Assembly (NCBI RefSeq): GCF_001542905.1
Contig: NZ_LOAJ01000001.1
Span: 1,736,001 to 1,800,000 of the forward strand
Reading direction: 5' to 3'
Length of the DNA stretch: 64,000 bases
Source of the DNA: Halorubrum aethiopicum
Lineage (GTDB): Archaea; Halobacteriota; Halobacteria; Halobacteriales; Haloferacaceae
Each line of letters opens with the position of its first letter. The stretch's first letter is position 1. The notes under the pieces were generated by a model, which worked only from the letters and a program-made list of their open reading frames with translations, was not told the DNA's origin and did no database searches. The translations under genes were made by a program, and so were the position numbers. Positions 847 to 34,290 of this stretch are shown here, piece after piece.

Positions 847-1316
847 ACCACACCACACCCCCTTCGGTTCACATCGAGATCATAACACACCGACCCATCC
901 CGGGTAACTGCATCACCACAGCGAGCCCCCACTCGACTCAACCACCACTCACCACCAGCAGGAGACACAGCCCCACCAAGCACCCGCAACGCACGGCGAA
1001 CCGCTGGTGAGGCGTGTACTACCGGGCGGTCCAACGACCCTCGACCCTGGAGAGCCGGGAACACAACCGGACACGCAGTCCGGCCTGCCGACTCACCGCA
1101 CGACCATACTGCCCGACCCGCACACCACCACACCCCGCCTGTGCAGCTCGACGCGATCGACGATCCCGCGCCCGGGAGTGGGCGGTCCGGGACGCATCGA
1201 CCCTGGAGAGCCGGGAACGCGACCGGACACGCAGTCCGACCCGCCGACTCACCGCACGACCATATCGCATAACCGGAGTCAGCAGCCCGGCCGTCACGAC
1301 CGTGACGACGGGTCAC
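843..1316 (-). CDS. Small Cys/Trp-rich repeat protein in the RAMP operon (uncertain)
   Basis: A GTG at 1316 overlaps the stop of the gene before it (GTGA), and its stop overlaps the next ATG (ATGA). Both junctions match the coupling used elsewhere in this operon, which is the main reason to accept it. The 157-residue product contains two copies of a segment with the core SCGESAGRTACP, encoded by 68-bp direct repeats spaced 156 bp (52 codons) apart, so the repeat is in phase. The composition is odd for a haloarchaeon: rich in Arg, Cys, Trp and Gly and poor in Asp and Glu. I do not recognise a family. The alternative is a non-coding spacer that happens to be open. A genuine gene is only slightly favoured. 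Confidence 0.35.
   Translation of the reverse strand: MTRRHGRDGRAADSGYAIWSCGESAGRTACPVAFPALQGRCVPDRPLPGAGSSIASSCTGGVWWCAGRAVWSCGESAGRTACPVVFPALQGRGSLDRPVVHASPAVRRALRVLGGAVSPAGGEWWLSRVGARCGDAVTRDGSVCYDLDVNRRGCGVV
1041..1264. repeat. Pair of 68-bp direct repeats
   Basis: Copies at 1041-1108 and 1197-1264 match at 64 of 68 positions and are 156 bp apart. The offset is a multiple of three in the minus-strand small ORF. With only two copies and a long spacer they do not make a CRISPR array. Confidence 0.8.
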
Positions 1317-2134
1317 GCATCCACCCCCACCGTGCCGCGCATCTCACCCGCGACAGCATCCTCAATGTACTGTAGCGCCGTCGACCACGACCGGATGCGA
1401 CGGAGCTGTGCGTCGACGTGTCGCCACCATACCGTGTCACGGTCCACCGGCGACCCAGACACGCGACTCCACACATCCGCAAACGACTCAGCCGGCGCCG
1501 GACCAAGCCACGCCGCCGACCCGTCCGGTGACGCCGTCAACCGCATCGTCACCCCATCCAACCACAGGATCGTTCGATGCGGCACCACCACGTCCACGTC
1601 GAGCGCCGCCTGCTGTCTCACCACTCGATCCGCATCTCCTGGCGGTGCGTCCGCTGCTGGTTCAACAACCAAGAACAGGTCATCAAACACGTGGCCCGCC
1701 CGGTACGCATCAAGCAACGCCGACACCAACAACACGTGATACTTCAACGACGAATACGGCAGAAACACCGACTCATTCACCAGCGACGCAGTCTCACTCG
1801 TCAACCACGCCGCGTGCAACTCTTCCGGCGACCCATCAACCAGCGGCGTGATCGAAGTATCCTGTACGGGGACCACCCCCGTTTCGAGTACCGAGCCCGT
1901 GAGCAGCGACAGCCGCGCTGGCGACGCGTGATTCGCCACCGTCTGCTCGGGTTCGCCGTCCGGCCGGCTCAACAACGCCGCATCCCGATCCGCTCCCAGC
2001 GGAACCGAGTCATTAACCGGCACATCGAACAGCTCGTCACACCCCGACCCGTGCTGACGACCACGCAGTTTGTGGACATCGTGCCGATACGCCACCCGCA
2101 GGTCCACGCTAACTATGTCACTCGCTTGCGCCAT
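1313..2134 (-). CDS. Unrecognised protein of the RAMP/type IV-like operon
   Basis: A longer frame begins at 2206, but the ATG at 2134 overlaps the stop of the upstream Cas7-like gene (TGATG). That coupled start is chosen, giving 273 residues. I see no nuclease, helicase or P-loop motif. The protein has a hydrophobic middle stretch (VFLPYSSLKYHVLLVSALLDA) and an Asp-rich remainder. By position, after csf1-like and csf2-like genes, it would sit where a csf3 (Cas5-like) or other effector subunit could be, but no glycine-rich RAMP loop is evident, so the role is inference from context only. It is followed by a GTGA overlap with the small repeat protein gene. Confidence 0.6.
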   Translation of the reverse strand: MAQASDIVSVDLRVAYRHDVHKLRGRQHGSGCDELFDVPVNDSVPLGADRDAALLSRPDGEPEQTVANHASPARLSLLTGSVLETGVVPVQDTSITPLVDGSPEELHAAWLTSETASLVNESVFLPYSSLKYHVLLVSALLDAYRAGHVFDDLFLVVEPAADAPPGDADRVVRQQAALDVDVVVPHRTILWLDGVTMRLTASPDGSAAWLGPAPAESFADVWSRVSGSPVDRDTVWWRHVDAQLRRIRSWSTALQYIEDAVAGEMRGTVGVDA

Positions 2135-3051
2135 CACAGCTCCCCCATACTGTTCACACGCTCTTGCAGCGGCGTCACGAACTGCTGACGCACTGACTCC
2201 CGCCACAGGTCATCCTTCCACGTCATTCCCGAGGTGGCGTCCTGCGCGCGATTGTACACCCGCTTGATCTCAGCGTCCGTGTACAGCGGGTTGATGACGC
2301 GCGCATCCACCATCCCCGCCCCGAAATTCCGCGCCCCACCCAACTGCAGTTCGAACTCATCACTATGCGCATCCAGGTAATCAACCGCCTCAACCAGCAG
2401 CCCGACGTACTCCGGTTTCAGTTCTCGGAGCGAGAGTTTCCACGTCCCCACGAGATTGCCGACAACGTCTCGGGACGCCATCCGCAACGGCTGCCCGTCA
2501 TCCTCACTGTTCCGTGAACGCACCTGCGTATTCAGTTGCCGATAATGCGCTTCCGCTTCGCCCTGCAGGACGTCGACTTGCCGGCGAATCGGAGAAAACC
2601 GGAGCGGCCGACGGACCAACCGCCCCGCCCGATCATTAAACCCTCCGAACAAGTCATAGACGACACAGCCGGCGTCGCCATCCACGCACGAGCCCTTCTC
2701 GTGGTACCCGGCGTCAAGGTCACGCTCATACACATCTTCGAGCATATAGTCCGCATTCGCCTCACCCGGATGACACGCCGACCCGCCCGCCACCTGCACC
2801 ACACGTTCACAGCCGTGGCGGAGCCACCCTGAGAGTGGGAACGGCGACACCATCCCCCCAATTTGGTTCTGCGGGTCGTCCGCCTCATACCGATCCGCCG
2901 AGGCATGGTGTCGATCGGTCACGATCCCATCGCCCGGTGCGAGCAGCGGAATTTCGAGTCCCACGTACAGATCTGGAAGTGTGAGATGTTCGACGTCGTC
3001 CGGCAACGTCACCTCACGATCCAAATGCGACGTCTCAAACTCCGGCACCAT
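2134..3051 (-). CDS. Cas7-like RAMP protein, Csf2-like
   Basis: The product has 305 residues from the ATG at 3051, which overlaps the stop of the zinc-finger gene by one base. It has the layout of Cas7-group RAMPs: an N-terminal strand with GLEIPLLAPGDG, a SPFPLSGWLRHG segment (the usual G-S-LKG-LR position), a Cys-containing stretch followed by YDLFGG (the CxxCxLFG position), and near the C-terminus GGARNFGAGMVDARV, a glycine-rich loop. In CRISPR effectors such proteins polymerise along crRNA. Being next to a small zinc-finger protein fits type IV csf1-csf2. RAMP membership is fairly firm; the Csf2 assignment is inference. Confidence 0.7.
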   Translation of the reverse strand: MVPEFETSHLDREVTLPDDVEHLTLPDLYVGLEIPLLAPGDGIVTDRHHASADRYEADDPQNQIGGMVSPFPLSGWLRHGCERVVQVAGGSACHPGEANADYMLEDVYERDLDAGYHEKGSCVDGDAGCVVYDLFGGFNDRAGRLVRRPLRFSPIRRQVDVLQGEAEAHYRQLNTQVRSRNSEDDGQPLRMASRDVVGNLVGTWKLSLRELKPEYVGLLVEAVDYLDAHSDEFELQLGGARNFGAGMVDARVINPLYTDAEIKRVYNRAQDATSGMTWKDDLWRESVRQQFVTPLQERVNSMGEL

Positions 3052-3545
3052 CACCAACCACCCCCATCAGCCCGAGTATCCTCACAGACAGCCGTCAGCA
3101 ACGGCATCGGACCATCCCGACGCTCAGTGACGGTAGTGCTCCGGGCCTCAGCACCGCGCGCCGCATCACCCACCACACGAGCCGACCCCGACGACGCCAC
3201 ACTCACCACCACCACCGACCGCGCAACCAGAACCAACCACGACGACTGCACCGCCACATCAGAACACAGCCCAACCCGACCAGTCACCACGAGCTCGTCG
3301 ACGCCGCGTATGAACTCCGTCGGGTGCGTATGCTTATCCGCCCCACACATCACGTATCCGATCTCAAAAATGGGGTTGCCAGCCGCCCGGAAGGCATACG
3401 CCGTCACCCCATCGCCTTCCCGGATCTCACACCCGCACACCTGACACACCGCCGGCCCTTCCCCGAGCGCATAAAATTCCACTTGATTTATCTCTTCAAT
3501 TAACTGATCGACGTTCTCTTGACCGCTGAAGTCCTTCTTTGTCAT
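3051..3545 (-). CDS. Small zinc-finger protein, Csf1-like
   Basis: This is the first gene of the minus-strand operon, 164 residues. Residues 34-39 give CQVCGC and C67 with H72 and H74 supply the second half of a probable zinc site. A well-formed stretch follows (GRVGLCSDVAVQSSW). The last about 45 residues are low in acidic residues and look less conserved, and may exist only because the frame is open up to the next start. Type IV CRISPR systems start with Csf1, a small zinc-finger large-subunit substitute, so the call rests on finger plus adjacency to a Cas7-like gene. A plain haloarchaeal zinc-ribbon protein is the alternative. Confidence 0.55.
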   Translation of the reverse strand: MTKKDFSGQENVDQLIEEINQVEFYALGEGPAVCQVCGCEIREGDGVTAYAFRAAGNPIFEIGYVMCGADKHTHPTEFIRGVDELVVTGRVGLCSDVAVQSSWLVLVARSVVVVSVASSGSARVVGDAARGAEARSTTVTERRDGPMPLLTAVCEDTRADGGGW

Positions 3546-5381: not shown

Positions 5382-7403
5382 CTACTGGGGTGGTGTCGAT
5401 GAGAGCACGTCATTTAGGTGCTCAGATAGCTCTTCAAGATGAGTTGCTCTGAAGTGTTCAGTGAGTGCGCGCATTTTCGGGTTTTTCGGGAGGACAACGC
5501 CATCTCCGTACTCGGAGAGCGCTTGCTCTATTACGGTGCGGTAGGTTTTGCTGGTCGCATAGCCAACGATGGCATCGAACTGTGAACCGTATTCTTCAAG
5601 GTAGGAAGTCAAACGGTTCACGACGAGTTGTTGGCGTTGTTTCTCAGCGTTCGTCAGCACGTACTCATATGATTTGATCTGCGAGAAATTTTCGTATTGT
5701 TCGGGTACAGGGCCGTACATACCAGAGACAGTCACTTTGTGGATCTGATCATTCCACTCAGCGGTTGCGTCTGCTACGACACGGTGCGTTCGGGAATTCG
5801 AATACGGTTTGGTTTGGCTACACGGGATAATGAGCAGTACGCGCTCATCACCGATCCGGTAGTCCTTCCGTTGAAGAATGTTGAAATCTTCCGGTGTATG
5901 CTCAAGTGAGATTTCTTGGTTATCGACTGGGATATCCAAGTCAAGCCGTTCCTGATCTGCATCGCTTTGATCGGTGGTGAGTCGATTGTAGCCGCGCTCA
6001 CGGAGCTGTTGTGCCAATTCACGGTCTCGGACTGTTGCTCTTTTTAATGCTCGTTTGATGTTCCCGACATCGTTGCGAGCCATTTTGGCAACGTATTCAA
6101 GTAACTCGCCGCCACCGTCGTTGATCAACTCCCGCACGTGATTCATTTCGTCTTGGTAAACACAGAAGTTATGATAGCTCATCAGTGCGTAAAAATCGCT
6201 CTTCATATATTCTCCGTCTCGATCATACGACTCGCTGTCATACATTGTGCCCTGCAGCTGCTCGAAACCTATCCGTCGTAGCTGCTCACATGCGGGACAT
6301 TGACAACCCCAGTCGTCGGGAATCTGATCCGCAGTGAATTTCGACCAGTCCGCTGCCCATCGTGCGTCGGCTGTCCGGTTGACGTCAACCCCAAAATCAC
6401 CCAAATCGTGTGTCGAAGCGTTCGGATTTCGGACAAGTTCCTCATCTGAAGCTCCGATCTCTCGATTGATGAATTTCTTGAACTGTGCTGCTTGCACATA
6501 GCTTGACGAGTCAAATGAATCCGCGCCAAGAAGCGTCAGGAGCGCCGTGAACTTACCACTAATCCCGAATAAATGAAGCCCGAGATCATTTTCCCGGTCC
6601 GCAGGAATCGCATCCTTCGCACCTTGCACGATGTCAACCAGCATTTCGACGTTCGTTCGGAGTGGGACGAGTGACCCGATTGCAAATCCCTCAAATGACT
6701 TGTCGATGTGCGTCGCACGGTCAAGGAACGTCCCGACGTACCAATTGATCGTTTCGTAGTCGTGACCGTGAATAGCGACATACACCGCGGGCGGATCTGG
6801 CTGATCCTCCAAGAGTTCAAGACAGCGTATGGCGCTGTCAATACTGTCTTCCATTCGTTGAGTCGTCTCCTCATCGTTCAGATTCGGTGGGATCGGATAG
6901 TCTAGGGTAGCGATGATATCAGCGCCATAATCGAGCTGCAAGTCTAGAATACTCTCTGGATTCGTGTAGATAGCCCAGTCATTATCATCGCCTCCCTCCG
7001 TTGGCGGGTCGCCGAAGGTATCGGAGTTTAGAAGCTTGAATCCGCCTGAGTCTACAAATAACGGCTTAGTGAAACTCTCCGGCTGTGAGTGATACGGCTT
7101 GACCGGCTCATGATCTGTGAAGTGGTCGTGGATCGGTTTCGAGCGCCAGTTCTCAAGCGATTCGGGAGTAATATTGAAATCCAAGAAACTCATCGCTTGG
7201 AACATCGCGCCTTGAAACTCGGGTTCTCCGAAGAGATGATTCCGCAATCGACTCCAAATTCCGCCGGACTTCTCGTTGGGTCCACCAATAAAATTGACTA
7301 CGGGGAAGAACGCTGGTGTCTGGACATCGCCATGTGGTGTATGGATCGTACCGCGGCGTGCGTTGCCAGCATCGTCAGTCGTGTCGGTCTCAAACGATGC
7401 CAT
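5382..7403 (-). CDS. TGT base-exchange enzyme fused to an ArcS-like (DUF5591) domain; DpdA-like
   Basis: The 673-residue product has two parts. Residues about 15-420 form a tRNA-guanine transglycosylase barrel: DSGGFK (D118), the LDYP loop (D168), FAIGSL (240-245), SFDSSSY with the expected nucleophile D298, and the zinc ligands C367, C369, C372 and H411. Residues about 515-660 contain PCSQTKPYSNSRTH at 527-540, an exact fit to PC-X3-KPY-X2-S-X2-H, the motif I know as diagnostic of archaeosine synthase ArcS. Canonical ArcS has lost TGT activity and carries a PUA domain for tRNA; here the TGT site looks intact and no PUA is seen. That points to DNA as substrate, as with bacterial DpdA. Inference: preQ0 is exchanged into DNA and then converted toward an archaeosine-type base. 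It is the last gene of a minus-strand operon. Confidence 0.85.
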   Translation of the reverse strand: MASFETDTTDDAGNARRGTIHTPHGDVQTPAFFPVVNFIGGPNEKSGGIWSRLRNHLFGEPEFQGAMFQAMSFLDFNITPESLENWRSKPIHDHFTDHEPVKPYHSQPESFTKPLFVDSGGFKLLNSDTFGDPPTEGGDDNDWAIYTNPESILDLQLDYGADIIATLDYPIPPNLNDEETTQRMEDSIDSAIRCLELLEDQPDPPAVYVAIHGHDYETINWYVGTFLDRATHIDKSFEGFAIGSLVPLRTNVEMLVDIVQGAKDAIPADRENDLGLHLFGISGKFTALLTLLGADSFDSSSYVQAAQFKKFINREIGASDEELVRNPNASTHDLGDFGVDVNRTADARWAADWSKFTADQIPDDWGCQCPACEQLRRIGFEQLQGTMYDSESYDRDGEYMKSDFYALMSYHNFCVYQDEMNHVRELINDGGGELLEYVAKMARNDVGNIKRALKRATVRDRELAQQLRERGYNRLTTDQSDADQERLDLDIPVDNQEISLEHTPEDFNILQRKDYRIGDERVLLIIPCSQTKPYSNSRTHRVVADATAEWNDQIHKVTVSGMYGPVPEQYENFSQIKSYEYVLTNAEKQRQQLVVNRLTSYLEEYGSQFDAIVGYATSKTYRTVIEQALSEYGDGVVLPKNPKMRALTEHFRATHLEELSEHLNDVLSSTPPQ

Positions 7404-7476: not shown

Positions 7477-9027
7477 CTACAGTCTGTCCTGAACCGTGAC
7501 GATATGGATGTTATGCCGACGACCATTATTATAGATTAGTCGGTCGTTCTCAAGGTCAATCGTGACCTCTCCACTATGATACCCTGAGCGCTCAAGCTCG
7601 CTTAGCTCGTCGCGGTCGCCGTACGACCAACAAACGATCTTATCGACGCTCTCAAGCGGTTTATCCGCCTTAAAGTGATCCGTGAGCCGACGATGAATCG
7701 AACTCGCGTAGAGGTTGGTATCCTGACGAACCAGCGCGTTGACCTCCGCACTTGGGTCGTAATCTTCAACTGTAATCTCCGGTTCAGCCCCAAAGCGGTT
7801 CGAGCGCTCCAATCCGAGAACGACTTCGGCGTCGTTGGATGGCGTGAATCGGTTTCGGTCTTGGATCCGTTGCTCGCGTTTTTCGATGGATGATTGTTGG
7901 GACTCTGCGCGGCGGGTGAGTTTCGCCTTGCGGCGGTGAGACAAGTAATCTTTGAACCACGGATCTGATGCAATCTTCGAAAGATAGTGGCTGAGTTCCT
8001 CTACAATTGCCTGATATACCGGGCTAGACTTGTTCCGTATCTTTTCACGGTTTGCCGATAATTCGAGGTCTTGGCAGTTTGCGATGAAGAAAAAATGAAG
8101 GAACTCGTTGTCGTGTGAGATGGTGTCGTTGACCCGCTCAACTTTGATGTGGTCTTTTGCCAGCCAGACACCGAACTGTGCCGAGTGCTTTCCGTAAGTA
8201 GGGAGCTCGTTACGAGCGTCTTTGCCTCCCACCATTCCAACCACCTCTACAGTTGTTTTCGTTCCGTTTTCGGTTTCGACAGTGAGTTCCCGTGGCGGGT
8301 AGTGTTTACACATCCGCGATTCCGAGAACTGGCCCTCTCCGGGGTTCCGCTGCTCGGTCGGGAACTCAAGCTTGTTGTTCATTACCAGTTGGTCTCGTGT
8401 GTCGTCGATCTCGTCACCGAGGGTGACCGTTATTTCCATTTCTGGGAAATCATCTGTGAAGAAGTGACCTGTTGATCCGGCGAGCGTCTTCCATTTCAGG
8501 TAGTGCTCAATCTTGTTGTAGGTGAGCGATGCTGGCGAGAAACCGTGCCCGGATTTGAATCCGGTAATACGGATGTGCGTCCCGGAGTTCCCTTCTTTGA
8601 CTGCCTCCTCGTTCAGCACATACTCGGGCATTGTCCGGTTATTGAGCTTTTCCCACGGCTGATCCATCTGTGCGCGTAAGTTGGTCCCGTTCTTCGTGGT
8701 ATTGACGAGTACCTCCTCGCTTTTGTAGAAAATCTTCGTTCCGTGACCTTTGTACCCGATCGAGCCGTTTTGACGGCCGCGTTTCGTGGAGTTTCCGAGA
8801 TCGAAGAACGACTCAAGATCAGCGTGATCCATCCCCTCCCCGTCGTCTTCGATAACGATTTCTGATCCAATCGGTCGGTCTCGAATGGTAATTTCGACTT
8901 CCGTCGCACCAGCATCATAACTGTTCGACAGCGACTCGCGGATCACTTCAAGCGGATCCTCGAAGTCGCTGGCGATCTCTAGAAATTCGTTTACTTCGTT
9001 GACTTGCGGTGTTTTCGTTGTTGACAT
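7477..9027 (-). CDS. GHKL (Hsp90/MORC-type) ATPase
   Basis: The 516-residue product starts with a Bergerat ATP-binding fold: N-box around RESLSNSYDAGA (E31, N35), DDGEGM at 61-66 and the glycine lid GYKGHGTKIF at 91-100. A middle domain includes SANREKIRNKS, similar to the transducer part of Hsp90/MORC/MutL-like ATPases. A basic coiled-coil (RRKAKLTRRAESQQSSIEKREQR, near residue 370) and an unrecognised tail follow. It lies between two TGT genes in one operon, its start next to the stop of the second TGT gene. Such ATPases often clamp nucleic acid in defence systems; a role in modification or in sensing unmodified DNA is inference. Confidence 0.8.
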   Translation of the reverse strand: MSTTKTPQVNEVNEFLEIASDFEDPLEVIRESLSNSYDAGATEVEITIRDRPIGSEIVIEDDGEGMDHADLESFFDLGNSTKRGRQNGSIGYKGHGTKIFYKSEEVLVNTTKNGTNLRAQMDQPWEKLNNRTMPEYVLNEEAVKEGNSGTHIRITGFKSGHGFSPASLTYNKIEHYLKWKTLAGSTGHFFTDDFPEMEITVTLGDEIDDTRDQLVMNNKLEFPTEQRNPGEGQFSESRMCKHYPPRELTVETENGTKTTVEVVGMVGGKDARNELPTYGKHSAQFGVWLAKDHIKVERVNDTISHDNEFLHFFFIANCQDLELSANREKIRNKSSPVYQAIVEELSHYLSKIASDPWFKDYLSHRRKAKLTRRAESQQSSIEKREQRIQDRNRFTPSNDAEVVLGLERSNRFGAEPEITVEDYDPSAEVNALVRQDTNLYASSIHRRLTDHFKADKPLESVDKIVCWSYGDRDELSELERSGYHSGEVTIDLENDRLIYNNGRRHNIHIVTVQDRL

Positions 9028-10269
9028 TCAGAAGTATCCTCCAAGTGATTCGTTTACAACGCGGTGTGCGTGCTGTTGCATCGATTTCTCCCGTCCCAGT
9101 GACTGCTCGATGTATGAAATCAACTCCCCGTCTCCCGGACTCTGAATCGCGGATTGCATTCTCTGTATTTCTTCTTTTTGAATAATTAGGTTGTGCATCG
9201 CAACCGCTCCAAGCTTGTCTTTCTGATACTCTGCATCTCCCTCCATACGCTTCACCAATACATCATCACTACAGACTTGACAGTCACATTTCGAAAAATC
9301 AACATCATCCACAGGCTCAGAATTGTACAACGAGGTATCGTATTTTCCGTTAATCGCTGAATGAATGTATGATGATGAATCAAACGTGTCTGCACCAACT
9401 GCAGCTAGGAGGGGAATCGCACTAGATGAGATCCCTAGGACGTGGAGAGGCAACTCTTCGAATCCCCAGTCAGCCAGGACTTCACGACAATCACTCACAG
9501 CGGTGATCAGCTTTTCCTTGTTATCTTTGAGTGGAACGAGACTCCCGAGGGCAACTCCATCGAACTCTCGATGGACACGGTCCCGGCCGATGACCTTCTC
9601 TACCTCTGAAAGAAACGTATCGAGCATAGAGTAGTTGTACCCATGGAGTGTCAGATACCGTGTGTCGTCTCGGCTGGTTAAGTTCAGGAACTCGTCGACG
9701 TTTTGGGCAGTCAGTCTTGCTTTCTCAACGCGAGTCGGATAATCATCATCGGGTGCAATAGGCCGATCAAGATTTACGAGGACGTCTCCTCCGAGCTTTC
9801 GTTGTATCTCCACGATTGCTTCCTGATCAACTTCGACCTCAAAGTCGCTACCATCAAGTCTGCTATCTCCAAGGAATTTGAATCCACCTGAGTCAAGAAA
9901 GAGGGTGCCATCAAAATCAAACACATCGCGTTCTCTGATCGGTTCAGAAATGTAGTCTTCGTACCGTTCTCTCGAGATCCCATAGTCCGTTAGCGACGCA
10001 ACAGATGTCATTACTCCGTCAAAATATCGGCTGTAATCACCACCGTTTACGACTTCGTCTCCGTTCATAAACTCCTTGATAGTTCGGTGGATACCGCCAC
10101 CATACAGACTTGCGTCTGTTCCTCCGGCATAGAAATTAACAACTGGAAGAAGGTTCGGAGTCGATAGTTCCGTGTCGCCGATCCGCAAAACTCCACTTCG
10201 AGCGTCACCCGCCTCAGCGGAAATCTCAAAGATGTCGTTTTTGAACTGCTCTGACCGGGACTCCATCAC
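9028..10269 (-). CDS. Second TGT base-exchange enzyme, DpdA-like
   Basis: The 413-residue product is a stand-alone TGT barrel. It shows LDSGGF (D126), NLDRP (D168), ALGSLVPL (240-247), TFDSSSY with the expected nucleophile D297, and a zinc site C328, C330, C333 and H359. It shares the TP-x2-PVVNF start and the FDSSSY signature with the longer TGT of this operon, so the two are paralogues, but it has no ArcS-like part and no PUA domain. Its ATG overlaps the stop of the small upstream gene (ATGA). Family knowledge: TGT proteins exchange guanine for 7-deazaguanines; DpdA does so in DNA. The pair may form a heterodimer or use different sites or precursors (inference). Confidence 0.8.
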   Translation of the reverse strand: MMESRSEQFKNDIFEISAEAGDARSGVLRIGDTELSTPNLLPVVNFYAGGTDASLYGGGIHRTIKEFMNGDEVVNGGDYSRYFDGVMTSVASLTDYGISRERYEDYISEPIRERDVFDFDGTLFLDSGGFKFLGDSRLDGSDFEVEVDQEAIVEIQRKLGGDVLVNLDRPIAPDDDYPTRVEKARLTAQNVDEFLNLTSRDDTRYLTLHGYNYSMLDTFLSEVEKVIGRDRVHREFDGVALGSLVPLKDNKEKLITAVSDCREVLADWGFEELPLHVLGISSSAIPLLAAVGADTFDSSSYIHSAINGKYDTSLYNSEPVDDVDFSKCDCQVCSDDVLVKRMEGDAEYQKDKLGAVAMHNLIIQKEEIQRMQSAIQSPGDGELISYIEQSLGREKSMQQHAHRVVNESLGGYF

Positions 10270-10724
10270 GCAGTCACCTCGCTACACATATCATTGCGTA
10301 CTACTTGTTTCAACTTCCGACCTTTTGTTCCGATCCCATCCCCCTTGATATAGGCTATGTCGACATTATTATGGTTAGAAATATCACCAACAGCTTGAGT
10401 GTAGACAGACCCCATATTCATAATAGCAGTCTCATAATCACCAGTTGAGATACAGTGACGTAGGTCTTCTGTAACGTATTCGCGTAATTCGCTAGCCCGC
10501 GAAGGCGTCATACGTCGATCATAGTTGGTGATATCATCGTCGGCGCAGAGTATTCCGTGCTCCGCCGAGAGAATTCGAAGTTCAATATCTGATCTAAATG
10601 CGCCCTCTCTCATTGCTTTTTTGATAATTTTGAAAAAATAGCCATCGTACACTTCTATAGCTCGGGTTGGTTTGGTCACCTGATTTTTAGTGGCTGAACA
10701 GGACTGAACGAGGAGCGTGGGCAT
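10266..10724 (-). CDS. DUF6884/YaaA-like small protein, possible DpdC counterpart
   Basis: This is the first gene of the TGT operon, 152 residues. It has SCSATK at 8-13, SAEHGIL at 53-59 and YDRRM at 68-72, the pattern of DUF6884-type proteins related to YaaA. The SCSxTK loop also resembles the PCSxTKPY loop of the ArcS-like domain in the last gene of the operon. In bacterial dpd clusters DpdC, described as YaaA/DUF328-like, changes inserted preQ0 to an amide form. A base-tailoring role on a 7-deazaguanine is therefore plausible but inferred. The ATG at 10724 faces the divergent 833-residue gene across a 213-bp AT-rich region that must hold both promoters. Confidence 0.6.
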   Translation of the reverse strand: MPTLLVQSCSATKNQVTKPTRAIEVYDGYFFKIIKKAMREGAFRSDIELRILSAEHGILCADDDITNYDRRMTPSRASELREYVTEDLRHCISTGDYETAIMNMGSVYTQAVGDISNHNNVDIAYIKGDGIGTKGRKLKQVVRNDMCSEVTA

Positions 10725-10937: not shown

Positions 10938-13439
10938 ATGGACGCAGAAAGAATCTCAAAACAGTCGAAAGGTAACGTCGACCAGTCATTACTAGAAGGA
11001 ACGGGTAGCGGCGGAATGTTATCTGCGGGGTATTTCAACGATAAATCGCTTATTGATCGACTTCACGACGGTGAGCGTGTGGACTATGCTCTCCAGAATC
11101 TCACTAAAGGAATTACACTCCGTAATGGGGACTCCGATGATACAATAAGCCCTCATTCGAGCTATCGGACAGTCCTACTCGTAACTGACGAGCGTCTCCT
11201 CTATGTCGTCGGTCAAGAAAACGGTGATAATACGTTCTCCGTCCGGTTCGAGGATATTCGAGATGTCGAGATATCTCACGGCGTTTTGAAAGACCGAATT
11301 ATTGTCCAAACAGACGCTGAAACGTACGATATGTACACACAGAAAGGTGGTGGTTTAGACGAAGCTTCCAAACACATCTCTGGGTTCTCAGAAAAGTCGA
11401 ATGAATCATCTGTCGATGAGCAAATAGAGCGAAAAAACAAAGAATGTACAGAAACCGATCCAAACGAGCCTCCCGGCAGACCCGAACATTCTGCTAATGT
11501 ACTAAAACAGGCCGGACGTAATACGGATTCCGAGGGAGATCCGTCGAATTCAAACTCAGATATGTCTGTGACCGTTGAGATACTCGTTTCGAATATCGAT
11601 GGAGAACCAGTCCCTGACGCAAGGATCAAAATCACTGGAACGACACTCTCAGTGAACGGACGAACTTCGCAAACTGGGCGGTGTAGTATCTCTGTTTCCG
11701 AAGCCTCCGCATCGGTCAAGATGGAGGTCAATCACCCTGAGTATCAAACAATACGGGAAGGGGTAACGTTGGCTGATGGTGCTGTTATCGATATCACCCT
11801 CAAAAGTGTTGATAGTACTGACAGTCACTCGGAAGAGAAGTCTCGCTCTGACGGTGCCGATTCTACTGAGACTTCAGATACAGGCAATGGATCACCGGAG
11901 CGTACGGAGCTATTGGACGAACTCGTTGCGCTAAATGAGCGCTTCTCCCAGAAGGTGACTCGAGGGAGAATGCGCACTGACGGAAAGTACAGTCCGGAAG
12001 ATTATGAGACGGCGTTCGGATCGTGGTCAACTGCCGTGGATCAAGCGCAGTTTGATCGGACGAACGAGAGGTCGTCAGCCCAACCAAATCAGCAAACGTA
12101 CTCGAGACAGGAAGTTATCGACGCCCTCGTTGACCTAATCGAGAAGGTGGAGGGTCGGCCTAGTACATCGGATATGAACGATTTGGGTGAGATGTCCGCC
12201 TCTCCCGTCTACCAGTATTTCAAAAGTTGGGATGCTGCCGTTGATGCTGCAAAGGAGGAACACGGTGCGGTAGAGTCAGATCACTATCGAGGTCAATCTG
12301 AGAAATCCGCTGACGGTTCAGCTACAAATTCTCCTTCGAAGGATACGGCGTCGGAACAGACGGAAGACAGTGACTTAACAGCCGATCAGCAGGATTCGGA
12401 GGTGTCCTCTGAGGCCTTTGCCGAACTCAACGGTTTTCGACGTGATTTGTTGGTCGTGATCAATGGGTTGGAAGCACCGAAGGGACTCGAAATAAAACGG
12501 GAACTAGAGGAGTACTATGACGGAACGATTCACCATGGTCGTCTTTATCCCAACCTAGACACGCTCGTGGAAGTAGGCTTCCTCGAGAAGTCGGCACAGG
12601 ATGAACGGAGCAATCGATACGAGTTGACGGACCTCGGTGCCAATCACATTGAAGCCCGATATCACTGGCAGCGGGATCGAGTCGCCACTAACGAAAACCA
12701 AACACAGACACCTGACCCCAAAGACAGGACGACATCAGAGACCGCTAAGGACGACACCCCCAGTAAGAAAGAGCAACGAGATAATACTCACACAGAAAAC
12801 ATTCCACATAATTCGGCGACGGAGGATAGCAAACAAAATTCCAACAGTGAGCCAACCGAAGAAGATGACTTCGAATGGGGTGTCGAAGAGTCAGATTTAG
12901 TCTCGGACAATCTTGATGAAGTACCAGAAGGACGTCTCTCTAACGTAGTTGTAGAAGTCATAAAAATCCGAGATATTTCGCCTGGGAAACGCGATTCGAT
13001 CGTCGAAATCAAGCTATCGAACGGGAAGCGAATCGACTTCACAATCTGGAACAAGCACGACATTGAGATTGATTTTCAGACTGGGGATAAGCTCCGGTTA
13101 AATGAGGTCAGACTCAAGCGATGGGAAACCGATCACGGATACGCTCATCAATTGAGTAGTACGAAAGACCTCACAATCGTTCCCATTGAGGAGTCTGGTG
13201 TTCAGCGGCCGTTTGAGGAAGATGAAGAAGACGAGTGTGTAAGTGGTGAGTCAGAGAAAGCGCACGACATTGATCAGCTTATTGGAGTAGGAGGTGCGAC
13301 GAAAGCCGACGCGGAGGCTCTCATAGAATCCGGGTATATGACGACTGCGGATCTAGAAAATGCCTCGCTCGATGACCTCCGATCGGTTTCGGGACTTGAC
13401 GACGGAACGGCTTTGCGTATCAAAGCAGAACTCGGGTAG
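10938..13439 (+). CDS. Multidomain DNA-binding protein (PH-like, Ig-like, HNH-associated repeats, winged helix, OB, HhH)
   Basis: The 833-residue product strings together small domains. Residues about 30-150 resemble a bacterial PH-like domain (TDERLLYVVG). Residues about 208-295 are a carboxypeptidase-regulatory/Ig-like fold (DGEPVPDARIKITG). Residues about 325-370 and 390-435 are two homing-endonuclease-associated repeats (RGRMRTDGKYSPEDYETAFG and a diverged copy). Residues about 500-575 are a PadR-type winged helix (HGRLYPNLDTLVEVGFLEK). About 650-755 could be an OB fold, and the last 55 residues are a helix-hairpin-helix pair (LIGVGGATKADAEALIESG). Acidic linkers separate them. No catalytic site is seen. 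It is divergent from the TGT operon and convergent with the ATPase/helicase operon. I infer a DNA-binding scaffold or recognition subunit. Confidence 0.75.
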   Translation: MDAERISKQSKGNVDQSLLEGTGSGGMLSAGYFNDKSLIDRLHDGERVDYALQNLTKGITLRNGDSDDTISPHSSYRTVLLVTDERLLYVVGQENGDNTFSVRFEDIRDVEISHGVLKDRIIVQTDAETYDMYTQKGGGLDEASKHISGFSEKSNESSVDEQIERKNKECTETDPNEPPGRPEHSANVLKQAGRNTDSEGDPSNSNSDMSVTVEILVSNIDGEPVPDARIKITGTTLSVNGRTSQTGRCSISVSEASASVKMEVNHPEYQTIREGVTLADGAVIDITLKSVDSTDSHSEEKSRSDGADSTETSDTGNGSPERTELLDELVALNERFSQKVTRGRMRTDGKYSPEDYETAFGSWSTAVDQAQFDRTNERSSAQPNQQTYSRQEVIDALVDLIEKVEGRPSTSDMNDLGEMSASPVYQYFKSWDAAVDAAKEEHGAVESDHYRGQSEKSADGSATNSPSKDTASEQTEDSDLTADQQDSEVSSEAFAELNGFRRDLLVVINGLEAPKGLEIKRELEEYYDGTIHHGRLYPNLDTLVEVGFLEKSAQDERSNRYELTDLGANHIEARYHWQRDRVATNENQTQTPDPKDRTTSETAKDDTPSKKEQRDNTHTENIPHNSATEDSKQNSNSEPTEEDDFEWGVEESDLVSDNLDEVPEGRLSNVVVEVIKIRDISPGKRDSIVEIKLSNGKRIDFTIWNKHDIEIDFQTGDKLRLNEVRLKRWETDHGYAHQLSSTKDLTIVPIEESGVQRPFEEDEEDECVSGESEKAHDIDQLIGVGGATKADAEALIESGYMTTADLENASLDDLRSVSGLDDGTALRIKAELG

Positions 13440-13458: not shown

Positions 13459-14160
13459 CTACGACAACGAGAGTTCCACGTAATCTTCGAGGTCGGAATC
13501 GCGCAGCAAGTCGATTTGCTTGTCGGTAAGCTCGTCGAGAAAGAGTTGTTTATCGGATAGCAATCCCTCAACGATCGGTTCTAACGGCGTCCCAACGTAC
13601 GGGCCGAATATCTCTTCGCGGCACTCTTCGAAGTACTCCCGCATATCCTTTCCGTAGTCTGCAGCCCGCTGCTTGAGTCTTTCAAAGCTCCACTCATCGT
13701 CTCGGTAGACCTGTCCTTTCCAATCCCAATCGGAGAGGAGTTCGTGGACCGCTTGGAGCCTGACTTCGCTCACACGTTCAACACGCTCATTGAGTCGCCT
13801 CATTCCGTTCACACGACTCTGCATTCCGATTCGAATCTCGTGGATCTCGTTGCTCACCCGACGTTTCTGGTCTTCAACCTTCGATCTGAGCGCATCGATG
13901 CGGTCACCAAGTACCTCGAAATCGCCTTCTTCCAACAACTCTCGTGCCTTGGCAACGGCTTGTTTGGCATCATCGTCGATCTTAAGATCAGTCTGAAGGA
14001 ACTCTTCAGCCAGGATCCGTTGGAGTATCGTTTCCTCCATCGTTTCGGCGATATCCTCTAATCGGGAAGCAAGCTGTCGGTGACGATACTGTTGGTAGAT
14101 CTCTTCGATGCTTTCTTCGAAGTTTTTGTCGGGCAAATTTTCAGATTGTTCAGTCGACAT
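13459..14160 (-). CDS. Coiled-coil protein, last gene of the ATPase/helicase operon
   Basis: The 233-residue product is almost entirely helical and highly charged, with heptad-like stretches over about residues 20-140 (RQLASRLEDIAETMEETILQ) and no recognised domain. Its start overlaps the stop of the large ATPase gene by 11 bases, so it belongs to the same transcript. It is probably a structural partner of that ATPase. Function unknown. Confidence 0.65.
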   Translation of the reverse strand: MSTEQSENLPDKNFEESIEEIYQQYRHRQLASRLEDIAETMEETILQRILAEEFLQTDLKIDDDAKQAVAKARELLEEGDFEVLGDRIDALRSKVEDQKRRVSNEIHEIRIGMQSRVNGMRRLNERVERVSEVRLQAVHELLSDWDWKGQVYRDDEWSFERLKQRAADYGKDMREYFEECREEIFGPYVGTPLEPIVEGLLSDKQLFLDELTDKQIDLLRDSDLEDYVELSLS

Positions 14161-17083
14161 AGTGAGTACTCACCTCCGTGAACTCCTCTCCGAGCTTATC
14201 GGTACCACTAGTTCCTGTTAGCGGGACTTCTCTAAAATTCGCCACCACTACATCGTTATCAAGTTTCAGACTAGCCAGAGTTGCTGTAGTTCTAGCGAAT
14301 GGATTTCCACCATACAGCCGATTGGCAAGCTCAGCTGCACTCACGGCATCATCCAACTCTGATTGAGTGTGATTACACACCTGCCCGAGCTGTTCCGTGA
14401 GATCGGGATCAACCGCATCGTACGTCTTCAGTTTTTTGTACCGATCATTAACGGATTGTATGTCCGTATCCGACAGCATCTCTGAGACGTATTCAACGGC
14501 TTCGCGCTGATAGCTGTGGTCCGTTGTGTCGTTGAGCGCCTTCCTGATATCGTACATCGTGTCGGCAAGGTCACGTACGTTATGACCCGATACGAATCGG
14601 ACACGTGATGCAATATTTCCGATGTATTGGCGACCGAGCATCCCAAGGACTTCGAAAGGCGGGTTTTGCTCCAAACGGTTGCGGACCTCCGGTACGTCGA
14701 GAGTGCTGGCAGAAACGCCTAGCAACGAGCCAAGCACATCTTCAACGTACTTTGCGTCCTCCATCGCTTCCTTGACTGCCTTAATCTCTTCATGTCCAAG
14801 CACTTCGTCAAGTCCCGAGAGCAGTTGCCGGTCAACCGTGAGTTCATCGTCAGATTGGTACCGCTCGTTCAGTCGCTCGGCAGTCACTTCGTGCCACGGA
14901 TCATCGAGAAGTGTTAGCGTCGAATACGTTGCGAGAAGGAAGTCAGTGAAATCGTATCGAGCGTGCCGCTTGTAGAACACGCTGTCGCTGTTCAGTTGTG
15001 TTTCGATGATCTTGTTACGCCACTCTTCAGCGTATCCGGTGAGTTGAGTACCGGCGGCTTCCAACTGTGCCGAATAGTCTGCGGATCTCGGTTCTATGTC
15101 TCGACGTACTCCAAATTCGACGAGCCGACGAAGGTCGGAACGGCGAAAATCACCTCTGTCAAGAATGATCTGGTCGGGATCCGGTGGCTCGTTCGAATCG
15201 GGATAGACGAATGGAGATTTCTGGCTACTGAGCATATAGCGCAGTGAGGTTCCCTCGATTAGACGGAGATCATCAGTGATCTCTTCCAAGAGATCCCGGA
15301 GAGCACGTTTGATGTACTCGTCCGTTTCAATGTACTTCGTTGGGTCTTCGATCCACGAGTCAATCTGTTCTTTTTGTTCCTTGATTTCCTGTTCAACTCT
15401 AGATCGACCACCACCACCACCACCACCAATTCTGTGTCCGCACTTAGAACAAATCTGGCTACCATCGGTATCAGTTCTCCACGCTACAGCACCACACTCG
15501 GGACAGGGATCGGGGTTTGGTCCATCCCCGGTAGATGCTACCTCTACCTGATGAGCACCAACTTCTATTTCGTTGGGTAGCCCGGTCGTTTCGAAACCAA
15601 ACGCGTCGACAAATTCTCTATTGATAACGACGTGGTCCCCCTGCTCACGTCCGTACCATTTAGCGAGATCGGCATACTCCTCGGCATCTTCGTAAACCTC
15701 GTCTGCGACAGAAACCGTATTCCCGAGTGGCCTGAGAACGTCTGCGGACGACGGAGCTTCAATATATCCTTCATGGTAATCCTGTAACACCTCGAATATC
15801 GTCATAATAAATTCACGCGGGGACTGCTGACTCTCGTCGAATCCGGCATAGATCCGCCGAACGAACGTCTGGTTGAACGGGAATAAGTCACGGAACGATT
15901 CCTCACAGAAGCCACAATCGGCGCAGATTGACCCCTCTGAGGCTTCTTTGAGATCGAACGTTCCATCGTCAGTGTTCCGATCGTATTGAACGCTACCGTC
16001 GTGTGATTTGATATATCCGAGATATGGACGTACAAAGTCAACTGCAGAGTCTTCGTTCAGGAATAGCACCGTATTCGAATCCTGTTCATTGGTCTGGAAG
16101 AACTCGAAGCGATCCTCCGCCGTCCGGGTGTGTAAAACCTCTGTAGAGTCACGGGTTCCCGCGACAATGAAGTCCCAATTGTCCGCGGACTTATCGCGCT
16201 CCATATACTTTCGGAGTCGCTCTGCTTCCATCGCGGCGATAGAGAAGTCCTCGAAGACGATGACTGGCCGAGTGTCCTCGAACTGTTGTCCGACTTGGTC
16301 AAGCACGTCACCAAGCGAAGAGGTATCGTAGTTCTCCCTGATTACCTGCCAGAGAGCGTTGTTGAACGCTTCGACGGCTTCTGAAACGCCAATTTCCTCA
16401 TTGAAAATTTTCAGTTCATCACGCTGTCTGTATTCGTTTTCTCCGATGAACTGAATCTTCTGAGCATACTCGCCCCGCTCGACGAGACGATTCAGTTTCT
16501 CGGCGATATAATCACGTATCTTGTCGGTCTGCTCACCGTCGGGAGCAACGTCGTACCCCTGCCTGCGCAGTGTGAGCGTCGCTCCCGAAGTGGCATTGTC
16601 TGCTACGGTCTGCGGGATGTCGACGATGTCGTCACGTAGGCGCTTGAACTCAGACGCTCCCGAGAGCTCTTCACCGAAGTGCTCTTGGTAGAACTCCGGA
16701 ATCCGCTCGGAAAGGATCGACATTAGATCGTCGTCTTTGTCGATGTGAAGCATCGGACGACCGTCGAGTCGGAGCCGGTGAGAGAGGTACGCGCAGAGTT
16801 CCGATTTACCGGTACCGACTTCTCCTTCGATGACGACGGCGAAATTCCCGACCCGATTATCAGAGAATTCTTGATAGATGCGATCCTCGTCCCACGTTTC
16901 ACCTCCCGCAGCTGTACCGCGGAAGACCTCCATGGACCGGTGCGTGAATTGGAAGAGGTCGTAATCCTCAGAACGGACTGCAGCGACCTTACTGAACAAT
17001 CGACGAAGCGTCTCTTCATCGACTTCGTCGAAGTGTGGACAACGTGCCGAGTCGGATTCGTCTGGTTTCACAATTTGATTCAT
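14150..17083 (-). CDS. Large P-loop ATPase with zinc ribbon, DpdH-like by size and context
   Basis: The 977-residue product has Walker A GEVGTGKS at 87-94 and a Walker B-like VIVFEDF near residue 273, indicating an AAA/STAND-type ATPase. A CADCGFC cluster follows near residue 390. A CPECG...CSKCG zinc ribbon lies near 535-560, followed directly by a run of seven glycines encoded by a CCA-type triplet tract around 15412-15430. The C-terminal half is helical and unrecognised. Its start overlaps the preceding gene (ATGA). Bacterial dpd clusters encode a roughly 1000-residue ATPase, DpdH, beside a short DpdG; size and neighbour match here, but I cannot prove homology by eye. Confidence 0.65.
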   Translation of the reverse strand: MNQIVKPDESDSARCPHFDEVDEETLRRLFSKVAAVRSEDYDLFQFTHRSMEVFRGTAAGGETWDEDRIYQEFSDNRVGNFAVVIEGEVGTGKSELCAYLSHRLRLDGRPMLHIDKDDDLMSILSERIPEFYQEHFGEELSGASEFKRLRDDIVDIPQTVADNATSGATLTLRRQGYDVAPDGEQTDKIRDYIAEKLNRLVERGEYAQKIQFIGENEYRQRDELKIFNEEIGVSEAVEAFNNALWQVIRENYDTSSLGDVLDQVGQQFEDTRPVIVFEDFSIAAMEAERLRKYMERDKSADNWDFIVAGTRDSTEVLHTRTAEDRFEFFQTNEQDSNTVLFLNEDSAVDFVRPYLGYIKSHDGSVQYDRNTDDGTFDLKEASEGSICADCGFCEESFRDLFPFNQTFVRRIYAGFDESQQSPREFIMTIFEVLQDYHEGYIEAPSSADVLRPLGNTVSVADEVYEDAEEYADLAKWYGREQGDHVVINREFVDAFGFETTGLPNEIEVGAHQVEVASTGDGPNPDPCPECGAVAWRTDTDGSQICSKCGHRIGGGGGGGRSRVEQEIKEQKEQIDSWIEDPTKYIETDEYIKRALRDLLEEITDDLRLIEGTSLRYMLSSQKSPFVYPDSNEPPDPDQIILDRGDFRRSDLRRLVEFGVRRDIEPRSADYSAQLEAAGTQLTGYAEEWRNKIIETQLNSDSVFYKRHARYDFTDFLLATYSTLTLLDDPWHEVTAERLNERYQSDDELTVDRQLLSGLDEVLGHEEIKAVKEAMEDAKYVEDVLGSLLGVSASTLDVPEVRNRLEQNPPFEVLGMLGRQYIGNIASRVRFVSGHNVRDLADTMYDIRKALNDTTDHSYQREAVEYVSEMLSDTDIQSVNDRYKKLKTYDAVDPDLTEQLGQVCNHTQSELDDAVSAAELANRLYGGNPFARTTATLASLKLDNDVVVANFREVPLTGTSGTDKLGEEFTEVSTHYVD

Positions 17084-17913
17084 TGAATCACCTCAATCGA
17101 GTTCGCCTCTCTGTCGATTCCCCTCCGCCGAGGGACACCATTCAGATCGACGGCAGCAGCGTCGCCCGATTCAACAATTCTAATCTCCTCCTCCCGCACT
17201 AGGTTGAAAAGAACCCGCGAGAGGGAGGCTGGTACGTTTCCGTCGGCTGTAAGCTCAATAAGGAAGAGATTTTCCCGCAACCAATCGACATACTCTGTAA
17301 TTGTCACGCGTCCGTTCGTCCCAACTTCGTCCACTGCAAGCTGAATCGACTCTTGAATCATATCCGGGCCTGGGTAGACGGTATGTCTTCTGCCGTTGGC
17401 CTTGTGAACGAGGTTAAGAAAGTCAACGAGCCGGGACCAGTTGACGAACTTGTGTTCGTTTAAATCAATCTCTCCCTGTTGAGACTGAGGACCGTATCCA
17501 CGCTCGCGGTGCCGCCGGTTGATCTTCTTGTACAGGGAGGAATCGTCGGAATCGAACGCTTGAATTTCCTCCTGAAGGAGGTATTGATAGTTGAGTAGGA
17601 CAACAGACTGTCTTCCCCAGTCTGTTTCCTCGGCTTCCGAAGTAAGATTATATAGCACACCAAGCCGGAAGTCGAGCTCTTCATCGCCGGTCTTCCACGG
17701 GAGGTCAACGGCGTAGTAATCAGGCTCTTGACGGCCGACGAGTCCAATTGCACGCAACCCGTTTATTCCTTGGTTCAGAAGATCGTCACTAAGTACGGTG
17801 TCGTTTTTGAGTTCACCTTTGGTGGTGTTTCCGCGCTTTATCGACCAGTAGACGGTCCGCAACGGGGCAGGCGTCTGTACCGTGTTCAGAATGTAAGGTG
17901 CTGTTTCGCTCAT
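17080..17913 (-). CDS. Unrecognised protein upstream of the large ATPase, possible DpdG counterpart
   Basis: The 277-residue product starts SETAPYILNTVQTPAPL and has a probable N-terminal winged helix (KRGNTTKGELKNDTVLSDDL then NGLRAIGLVGRQ). A C-terminal segment around EYVDWLRENLFLIELTADGN looks like a second winged helix. No catalytic motif is visible. Both ends overlap neighbours by four bases (ATGA), so it is translated with the ATPase and the 309-residue protein. In bacterial dpd clusters the gene beside DpdH is DpdG; the match is by position and approximate size only. Confidence 0.6.
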   Translation of the reverse strand: MSETAPYILNTVQTPAPLRTVYWSIKRGNTTKGELKNDTVLSDDLLNQGINGLRAIGLVGRQEPDYYAVDLPWKTGDEELDFRLGVLYNLTSEAEETDWGRQSVVLLNYQYLLQEEIQAFDSDDSSLYKKINRRHRERGYGPQSQQGEIDLNEHKFVNWSRLVDFLNLVHKANGRRHTVYPGPDMIQESIQLAVDEVGTNGRVTITEYVDWLRENLFLIELTADGNVPASLSRVLFNLVREEEIRIVESGDAAAVDLNGVPRRRGIDREANSIEVIQ

Positions 17914-18839
17914 AGTGGATGCATTAGCCAGTCGTGATACCGTGCGTCGATCGGGCTTGTCTCGGGGTTGAGATCCTTCGCCGCCTCTCGAGCCAAACGG
18001 ATCTTTGGACTGCGTTTCGCGTAGGAGGGGTCAAAAGTTGTTCCTTCCATCGAGACTGATCGATTCAGATCGTGTGCGATCTCCGATGCAGTCGATTTGT
18101 CCCACTCGATTCGTCGTCGGAGCCAGCCTCCGAAGGCTTCGATCACGTCGTCACTCTCCAAGGGTGAGACCCCAAGTTCGTCCCTGCGTGCGAAAATGTT
18201 TGAGAAGGTATCGTAGAGTGGAAGGTACGGCGCTTCCGTGAGTTCGTCGAACAATTCGGATGTCGTCTCGATCGGATCTCCTTCGACCAGCTCGTAGAGG
18301 TTCGCGTTGTCTTGTACAAAGAGATTCTTTGTGTCTCGAAGCGGCATCCCCCAGCCTTCGCTCTCGTAATGCTCGACAAATGCCTCATAAACGCGGTCAT
18401 ACCGCCCGATATGTCGACAGAACGGCTCGTGGTATAGGGGGCGAAGGCCACCAGATGGTTGGAATCGGCGCTCGTCAGCGACGACGATCAATGATCCCTC
18501 GGAACTCGCGTATCGGTTGACGAGGTCATTCATCGTGTACTGCGTGTTCTTTTCATAGTAGCTCGTCGTGACGACACAAAGGTCCTCTGACGGAGGAAGC
18601 TGTATTCCCCCGCTAACGTGATAATCATACCCGGGAAAGTCGTATTGTCTACCCCCACGTTCGTGTTGCCACGTGTGCTTGAGCTGACGCCACGAAGTCG
18701 GGTACGTGGCGTGTTCCGTACCGAGATAATTAATCGCGGGCAGCGATCGCAATTTCCAATAATGGACGTTTCCATCTGGGTCGTGAATGAACGCGACATC
18801 AGCGTCGTTCATCCGATTTTGGACTGCTTGTAGACTCAC
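17910..18839 (-). CDS. Unrecognised protein between helicase and ATPase genes
   Basis: The 309-residue product has no motif I recognise. It begins with a strand-rich part (DADVAFIHDPDGNVHYWKL), has a hydrophobic strand LCVVTTSYY around residue 107 and another around SLIVVADERRF, and ends with basic helices. The alternation suggests an alpha/beta fold, possibly nuclease-like, but no conserved acidic-lysine set stands out. ATGA overlaps on both sides put it in the same coupled operon as the large helicase and the ATPase, so it should be a stoichiometric component of that system. Confidence 0.55.
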   Translation of the reverse strand: MSLQAVQNRMNDADVAFIHDPDGNVHYWKLRSLPAINYLGTEHATYPTSWRQLKHTWQHERGGRQYDFPGYDYHVSGGIQLPPSEDLCVVTTSYYEKNTQYTMNDLVNRYASSEGSLIVVADERRFQPSGGLRPLYHEPFCRHIGRYDRVYEAFVEHYESEGWGMPLRDTKNLFVQDNANLYELVEGDPIETTSELFDELTEAPYLPLYDTFSNIFARRDELGVSPLESDDVIEAFGGWLRRRIEWDKSTASEIAHDLNRSVSMEGTTFDPSYAKRSPKIRLAREAAKDLNPETSPIDARYHDWLMHPL

Positions 18840-23572: not shown

Positions 23573-23944
23573 TTTATATGATATCTGATCTTACCTTCGG
23601 GTTCACGTACTCGACAACAGTAAGAAGGCAAGATTTTATGGCGTTCCGATGCCGGACCCGGATCGCTAGATTTGACGGTCGGTTTGTCAACGTTATCTCA
23701 CGATTTACGCGACTCTGATGTAAAGTCACGGGTCAAAGAATCACGGTAGATACTGGCGCGCCGGTAAGAGTTTGCTGAAAACCACACCGTAAGGCCGTAA
23801 TGGTCGTGGAAATCTACAGAAACCGCTTCCTTACCCTTTTCTGTATTCCACGCTTATTATTAACAAGAAGTTTAGTTCGCAGTTATTCCAACCTACGCCG
23901 GAAGATTGAACTTGATATCCGAACCACACGTGGTATCTCACTCG
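23573..23944. other. Divergent intergenic region between the two helicase genes
   Basis: This stretch must contain the start signals for both helicase transcripts. AT-rich segments lie near 23573-23590 and 23853-23873 (CTTATTATTAACAAG). I see no gene, no repeat array and no convincing hairpin. A TTG at 23906 could extend the plus-strand helicase, but the ATG at 23945 is preferred. Confidence 0.5.
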
Positions 23945-29511: not shown

Positions 29512-29660
29512 TAGCGGTCACCACCGGCTATGATCGTACAACTGCGTGCGGTGCTCTGTTGCGGTTCGGCCGGGGGAGATACCGGTGGGCAACGAGAGAG
29601 TTGGCGGAGAGACGATCGTGAGTGGTGCTGCTGTTCCATCGATGGAGTATCGAAACTCAA

Positions 29661-29670
29661 TATTTATATA
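29661..29670 (+). promoter_or_regulatory. TATA box for queD
   Basis: TATTTATATA is centred about 27 bases before the ATG at 29692, with no Shine-Dalgarno site between. This is the standard picture of a leaderless haloarchaeal promoter and supports that ATG over the upstream in-frame start at 29530. Confidence 0.7.
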
Positions 29671-29691
29671 TTCCCTGGGTATTCTTCGAGT

Positions 29692-34268: not shown

Positions 34269-34290
34269 CCCTCATCACCTTCCCTATCTC

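Follow-up and report, generated by a model that had tools for sequence, protein, structure and literature searches.

The gene at positions 5382-7403 (minus strand) of the window, the whole 64,000-nucleotide stretch of Halorubrum aethiopicum DNA that we analyzed, encodes a 673-residue protein (ATG start) that joins an intact transglycosylase (TGT) domain to a C-terminal DUF5591 core of the ArcS type. This TGT-DUF5591 fusion, hereafter FUS, is a real enzyme architecture, for which we found no description in the accessible literature, inside a known type of system; what is new is the C-terminal DUF5591 on an intact TGT. We propose, with a probability of about 0.68, that FUS modifies DNA bases as a subunit of a restriction-modification system of BRIGADE type I. 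The proposal builds on domain content, intact active sites, the absence of a PUA domain, synteny and co-occurrence, each established computationally.

FUS consists of a TGT domain (residues ~1-445), a linker (~446-510) and the ArcS-type core (~514-660). Pfam matched the TGT domain with 102 bits (E = 4.7e-29) in two stretches, the best at 111-444, and DUF5591 with 59.5 bits (E = 4.3e-16). Neither PUA nor TGT_C2 was found in FUS by the Pfam scan, although the same scan of the genome's own ArcS, used as a positive control, returned DUF5591 (203 bits), PUA (51 bits) and TGT_C2 (40 bits). The TGT match of this ArcS is only partial (profile positions 211-352 of 357). In FUS, PCSQTKPYSNSRTH at residues 527-540 is an exact PC-X3-KPY-X2-S-X2-H motif; about 8e-6 occurrences would be expected by chance over the six frames of the window, and one was observed. 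Both active sites are strongly conserved. Residues D118, D168, H212, G243, D298 and H411 are invariant in all 41 full-length relatives, the zinc cysteines C367/C369/C372 are retained in 39-40 of them, and within the motif C, K, P, Y and S are kept in all 41, P in 40 and H in 39. Such retention of catalytic residues and core motif implies that both sites of FUS are under selection. An earlier note on this DNA had placed D118, D298, C367/C369/C372/H411 and a perfect ArcS motif exactly here and had described the active site as intact and the PUA domain as missing; all of this holds, for the residues also across the family.

We modeled FUS with AlphaFold2 using an alignment of 23 relatives (mean pLDDT 75.8, pTM 0.74). 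The model comprises two domains only, a TGT barrel and, behind a flexible or disordered linker (479-500), an alpha/beta domain that extends to residue 669. Based on 23 sequences, it speaks for the fold of each domain and not for DNA contacts or the placement of the domains relative to one another. The top PDB matches found by Foldseek are the archaeosine TGT 1iq8 (E = 9e-19) and bacterial TGTs, with target TM-scores of ~0.8. Structure prediction, which the earlier note had suggested as a check, thus revealed a complete barrel and no PUA domain. With its full barrel, two catalytic aspartates and zinc site, FUS has the hallmarks of the TGT superfamily. Among family models, it scores 88 bits with the archaeal TGT model TIGR00432 and 72 bits with the ArcS equivalog NF040592, well below the cut-off of 440, and has no match to the DpdA equivalog NF041059.

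Upstream of FUS, three genes lie on the same strand. The first (7477-9027, minus strand) encodes a 516-residue GHKL/HATPase_c_3 ATPase, assigned by Pfam (HATPase_c_3, 2.3e-17) and synteny; it always adjoins the gene of a small transglycosylase, TGT2 (9028-10269, minus strand; 412-413 residues). The site of TGT2 (D125/D167/D296 and zinc ligands C327/C329/C332/H358) is as intact as that of FUS, and its structure model is of about the same quality, with 1iq8 and the heterodimeric mouse TGT (7b2i) among the best structural matches. The third gene (10266-10724, minus strand) overlaps that of TGT2 and codes for a 152-residue DUF6884/DpdC-type protein (Pfam DUF6884, 2.5e-10; PADLOC DpdC, 2.8e-5) with a conserved C9-S10-x2-K13.

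Further along the window, a minus-strand five-gene operon (23572-13459) starts with a 1578-residue YprA/MrfA-type helicase (18836-23572), which has an MZB domain (Pfam) and is closest to Druantia DruE, i.e. to the ARMADA/BRIGADE side (PADLOC DruE 1.7e-45 as the best match, DpdJ 4.6e-24). It continues, by synteny, with proteins of 309 (17910-18839) and 277 (17080-17913) residues, a 977-residue P-loop ATPase with a zinc ribbon (14150-17083; weak Pfam AAA matches) and, as the last gene, a 233-residue protein (13459-14160). The plus strand then encodes a second YprA-type helicase of 1360 residues (23906-27988; best PADLOC match DpdJ, 9.5e-46) and a DpdK-like PLD-family nuclease (27888-28418; PADLOC DpdK 8.5e-12, Pfam PLDc_2 7.3e-7). 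A putative YhhQ-type queuosine-precursor transporter (28852-29511, minus strand), recognized by eye from its sequence and syntenic with QueDEC in relatives, precedes the plus-strand genes for preQ0 synthesis, QueD (29530-30153) and QueE (30153-30929), both assigned by sequence and synteny, and QueC (31042-31731; TIGR00364, 187.8 bits). No other QueC of the genome scores above the family cut-off, so the supply of preQ0 is common to the island and to tRNA archaeosine synthesis.

The window holds several other genes of interest. Between the two operons, an 833-residue plus-strand protein (10938-13439) with PH-like, HNH-repeat, PadR and helix-hairpin-helix matches is kept at that place in close relatives only. 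A 2144-residue protein (43051-49485; PADLOC TmtA, 1098 bits) is a candidate defence gene. A CD-NTase-type oligonucleotide cyclase (34291-35373; PADLOC 1.6e-162) belongs to a CBASS-like region (32197-38044) together with small neighbor genes and an AAA/HTH protein. Three minus-strand genes at 1313-3545, one of which matches the RAMP superfamily marginally (E = 0.009), are possibly CRISPR-related, their context extending beyond the window edge.

The DUF6884-TGT2-ATPase triad, FUS, the five-gene helicase operon, the helicase-PLD pair and QueDEC recur together in diverse haloarchaeal genera and on two plasmids, the modules being shuffled in orientation across genera. The conserved set consists of DUF6884, a second intact TGT, the GHKL ATPase, two YprA helicases, the PLD nuclease and, often, QueDEC. 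This set matches type I of BRIGADE, which was named in the 2025 preprint by Bell et al. and is reported there from haloarchaea only (PMC12458937). There, type I is characterized by a 7-deazaguanine cluster, a PLD nuclease and two YprA helicases, one ARMADA-like and one Dpd-like; the authors infer base hypermodification and restriction (PMC12458937). Our literature search found no experiment on any BRIGADE system, and neither a TGT nor ArcS nor a fusion protein is mentioned in the main text of the preprint (PMC12458937). The FUS locus has every one of these type I elements: a DruE-like YprA helicase of the ARMADA/Druantia branch with its MZB domain, another YprA helicase, this one from the Dpd branch (best match DpdJ), a PLD nuclease, where type I may have PLD or PD-(D/E)xK, and a 7-deazaguanine cluster (the TGTs, DUF6884 and QueDEC) in hosts that are all Halobacteria. 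Because of this match, DNA is the likely target of FUS, and the DNA-modification context envisaged in the earlier note is supported.

Other known systems resemble the locus in part. With bacterial Dpd (DpdA-K) it shares a TGT-family enzyme, a DUF6884/DpdC-type protein, a DpdJ-like helicase and a DpdK-like PLD nuclease, and QueDEC and YhhQ are frequent neighbors of bacterial Dpd as well (PMC11888242). Unlike bacterial Dpd, the FUS locus has a GHKL ATPase in place of DpdB and two TGTs, one of them fused to DUF5591; moreover, TGT2 reaches just 26 bits with the DpdA equivalog NF041059 (cut-off 200). The DpdB ParB-like ATPase has no match among the scanned neighbor genes of FUS; the GHKL ATPase may possibly stand in for it. 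A TGT has also been recruited into an archaeal and bacterial defence operon known as BREX-related capture (PMC12839542), but the genes scanned at the FUS locus include none of its core components (PglZ, DUF6079, HerA and GNAT). Separately, a Haloferax alexandrinus plasmid (locus L040, 12018-18076) codes for a 964-residue protein that matches TGT weakly and has a stretch of DUF6884 at its C-terminal end. It adjoins a TGT, an uncharacterized protein and a BrxC/D-type ATPase and possibly represents another archaeal TGT-based defence system.

We then considered the relationship of FUS to the tRNA enzymes. In archaeal tRNA, ArcS adds lysine to preQ0 and RaSEA completes archaeosine (G+) (PMC11298593). 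TgtA and ArcS align over their full length in a profile comparison. The transglycosylase signature D-S/A-G-S/G-F is lost in 29 of 29 canonical ArcS, and the ArcS motif was not found in the genome's own TgtA. tRNA ArcS resembles FUS in that a DUF5591 core bearing PC-X3-KPY-X2-S-X2-H comes after a TGT-like region; its barrel, however, is broken and accompanied by C2 and PUA domains, whereas FUS has a complete barrel and neither of the two. The contrast with tRNA ArcS drawn in the earlier note is therefore real. With TgtA (tRNA-guanine(15) transglycosylase) FUS shares a complete TGT domain, the catalytic aspartates and the zinc site. It differs from TgtA, which acts on tRNA, in its active-looking core, in H212 replacing Gln and in a separate position in the tree. 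Profile comparison identified TGT2 as nearest to the FUS TGT domain, and in the TGT-domain tree FUS and TGT2 group with two non-TgtA proteins (P0003 and P0004) apart from TgtA, the relevant joins having moderate support (SH-aLRT 83-92) and the non-haloarchaeal sequences long branches. Phylogeny of the DUF5591 part, also proposed in the earlier note, likewise separated the FUS core from ArcS (see below). H212 was considered as a DNA-specific mark and rejected: it sets FUS, TGT2 and P0003 apart from TgtA, yet Gln is present in the bacterial-type DpdA-like proteins P0002, P0004 and P0008.

It might be argued that FUS is a tRNA enzyme making an archaeosine-type base, a paralogue of TgtA or ArcS that resides in a defence island by chance. 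Its homology to archaeal TGTs (88 bits with TIGR00432), its ArcS-type core and the proximity of QueDEC would agree with this, and we nevertheless consider it highly improbable. The genome has a tRNA TgtA and a PUA-bearing ArcS of its own, both encoded elsewhere, so that tRNA archaeosine is already provided for without FUS; the only RaSEA lies outside both the island and the window, ~0.2 Mb away. In addition, FUS is devoid of the PUA and C2 tRNA-binding domains, and its H212 is conserved, as against Gln in nearly all of the canonical TgtA that were checked. FUS is also patchily distributed, accompanied in most cases by restriction-type genes and in every case by another gene of the TGT family.

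This distribution was derived from 391 haloarchaeal genomes, 38 of which contain FUS relatives; 11 further listed genomes, matching solely via a shorter TGT protein, were excluded from the count. Two plasmids also carry FUS relatives, and the 22 named FUS loci from the genome-contig scan are all haloarchaeal, including Halorubrum, Natrinema and Halorussus. Among the carriers are Halorubrum coriense DSM 10284, H. lipolyticum DSM 21995, H. kocurii JCM 14978 and H. cibi DSM 19504. A sample of 393 genomes spanning the phylum yielded no FUS outside Halobacteria. A viral origin was rejected, since two IMG/VR scans gave no relative and tblastn against phage records gave only a Staphylococcus phage TGT with 22.7% identity. 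TGT2 is present in 42 of the 391 genomes, 37 with FUS and five without, and a single genome has FUS without TGT2 (Fisher p ~3e-45, a value in which related genomes are not independent and phylogenetic dependence is not removed). In this one genome (G236) a PF23859 DpdA gene (E = 1.6e-24) faces FUS, so that a TGT-family enzyme besides TgtA and FUS is found in 38 of 38 FUS genomes (37 intact small TGTs and one PF23859 DpdA). At the only FUS locus lacking TGT2 (L068, 16780-19892), where this DpdA faces FUS, a DpdJ-like helicase lies downstream. Two differing FUS genes (654 and 673 residues), belonging to separate FUS subgroups, lie face to face on a Haladaptatus plasmid (L038, 19989-24688).

The constant second TGT-family enzyme means that FUS need not insert the base alone, and it weakens the idea of the earlier note that a single enzyme performs both insertion and conversion; what stands of that idea is that both sites are intact in one chain. 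A possible, if doubtful, alternative is that TGT2, with DUF6884 and the ATPase, inserts preQ0, and that the TGT fold of FUS is a DNA-binding or dimer partner, FUS acting through DUF5591 only. Besides the presence of a non-TgtA second enzyme in all 38 genomes, eukaryotic tRNA TGT offers a precedent, as it is a heterodimer and its structure 7b2i is among the best matches of TGT2. However, a scaffold would have no need of the catalytic and base-binding aspartates, which are invariant in 41 FUS proteins, and the barrel is lost in canonical ArcS, where the TGT part does serve as a scaffold.

The five genomes with TGT2 but no FUS raise another alternative. In these, a GmrSD-type endonuclease takes the place beside the GHKL ATPase. 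TGT2 with DUF6884 could make one base (dADG, as DpdC does) and FUS a second, different one; each TGT does have its own cysteine-core partner, and the TGT2-DUF6884-ATPase triad evidently occurs without FUS next to a GmrSD enzyme. We regard two independent marks as rather unlikely, since the near-complete co-occurrence of FUS and TGT2 favors a joint function. The FUS-less loci (L104, 7919-15355; also L102, L103, L105 and L106) are BRIGADE-like, with the GmrSD-type endonuclease adjoining the ATPase and with a second DUF6884 gene and a 310-residue protein flanking the other side of the triad. Profile comparison of this protein (P0007) gave no significant indication of a hidden second TGT (best p 0.026).

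The FUS core has in common with 29 canonical ArcS the motif, G564, V566, P567, E571 and Y579. It departs from the ArcS-invariant T560, S561, P562 and H615, and an ArcS-invariant Trp is deleted in all 41 FUS. At G561, Y615, P639 and mostly R597, the core is instead like the AF0587-like DUF5591 proteins (PDB 2q07) and unlike ArcS. These proteins (L215-L226) belong to other archaea within the phylum; they are open frames of 220-335 residues, distinct from ArcS, and have the full motif in 12 of 12 cases. The FUS core, ArcS and the AF0587-like family form three separate clades. The presence of PC-X3-KPY-X2-S-X2-H in a separate family means that it is not diagnostic of ArcS, and an 'ArcS motif' should not be equated with archaeosine. 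The motif rather points to the cysteine-based chemistry of the superfamily than specifically to archaeosine synthesis. Thus, the archaeosine-type product expected in the earlier note keeps the intact motif in its favor but not its specificity. DpdC, the maker of dADG, is in turn reported to have the Pfam domain DUF6884 (PMC11888242), so an amide product is as likely as an amidine.

Taken with homology and context, from which we infer the DNA target, base exchange, order of steps and restriction, our preferred reading of FUS as a BRIGADE type I modification subunit would work as follows. QueDEC would make preQ0. FUS and TGT2, probably together and perhaps as a heterodimer, would, along with the GHKL ATPase, replace guanines in host DNA by preQ0. 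The nitrile would then be processed by cysteine-based cores, DUF5591 of FUS in cis (Cys528) and the DUF6884/DpdC-type protein in trans (Cys9). The finished base would mark self DNA, and unmarked DNA would be attacked by the YprA helicases, the operon of the 977-residue ATPase and the PLD nuclease. More tentatively, FUS may be bifunctional, exchanging guanine for preQ0 in DNA, with its own core then turning the nitrile into either an amidine or a conjugate with an amino acid (an archaeosine-type base or preQ0-lysine), the self mark of a two-transglycosylase complex.

Precedents exist for both the chemistry and the fusion. Vibrio phage nt-1 has a DpdA2 and an ArcS homologue, and dPreQ0, dADG and dG+ were detected in its DNA (PMC6884629), so this chemistry is possible on DNA. 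In common with FUS is the combination of a TGT-type and an ArcS-type protein; in nt-1, however, they are separate proteins of a phage genome, the former of the DpdA2 subfamily. A cyanobacterial DpdC-DpdA fusion on a Picosynechococcus plasmid (L041, 1074-3149; DpdC 4e-11, DpdA 3e-129) does combine a transglycosylase and a cysteine-core nitrile-processing domain in one chain, which is therefore not unique to FUS, but the domain order is reversed and the extra domain is DUF6884/DpdC, not DUF5591. A second TGT gene lies near this fusion, flanked by two helicase genes. The new arrangement claimed in the earlier note consequently narrows to the C-terminal DUF5591 on an intact TGT, within a system that fits BRIGADE.

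In archaeal tRNA, insertion of preQ0 by TgtA and its conversion by ArcS are divided between two paralogues, TgtA having no ArcS motif and ArcS no transglycosylase. FUS keeps both halves intact and is devoid of the tRNA-binding domains. BRIGADE, until now defined mainly via its helicases, gains from FUS a concrete predicted modification chemistry, and FUS leads us to predict that culturable strains of Halorubrum and its relatives have a 7-deazaguanine base in their DNA. If FUS is indeed bifunctional, this base would be one so far unreported from archaeal chromosomes.
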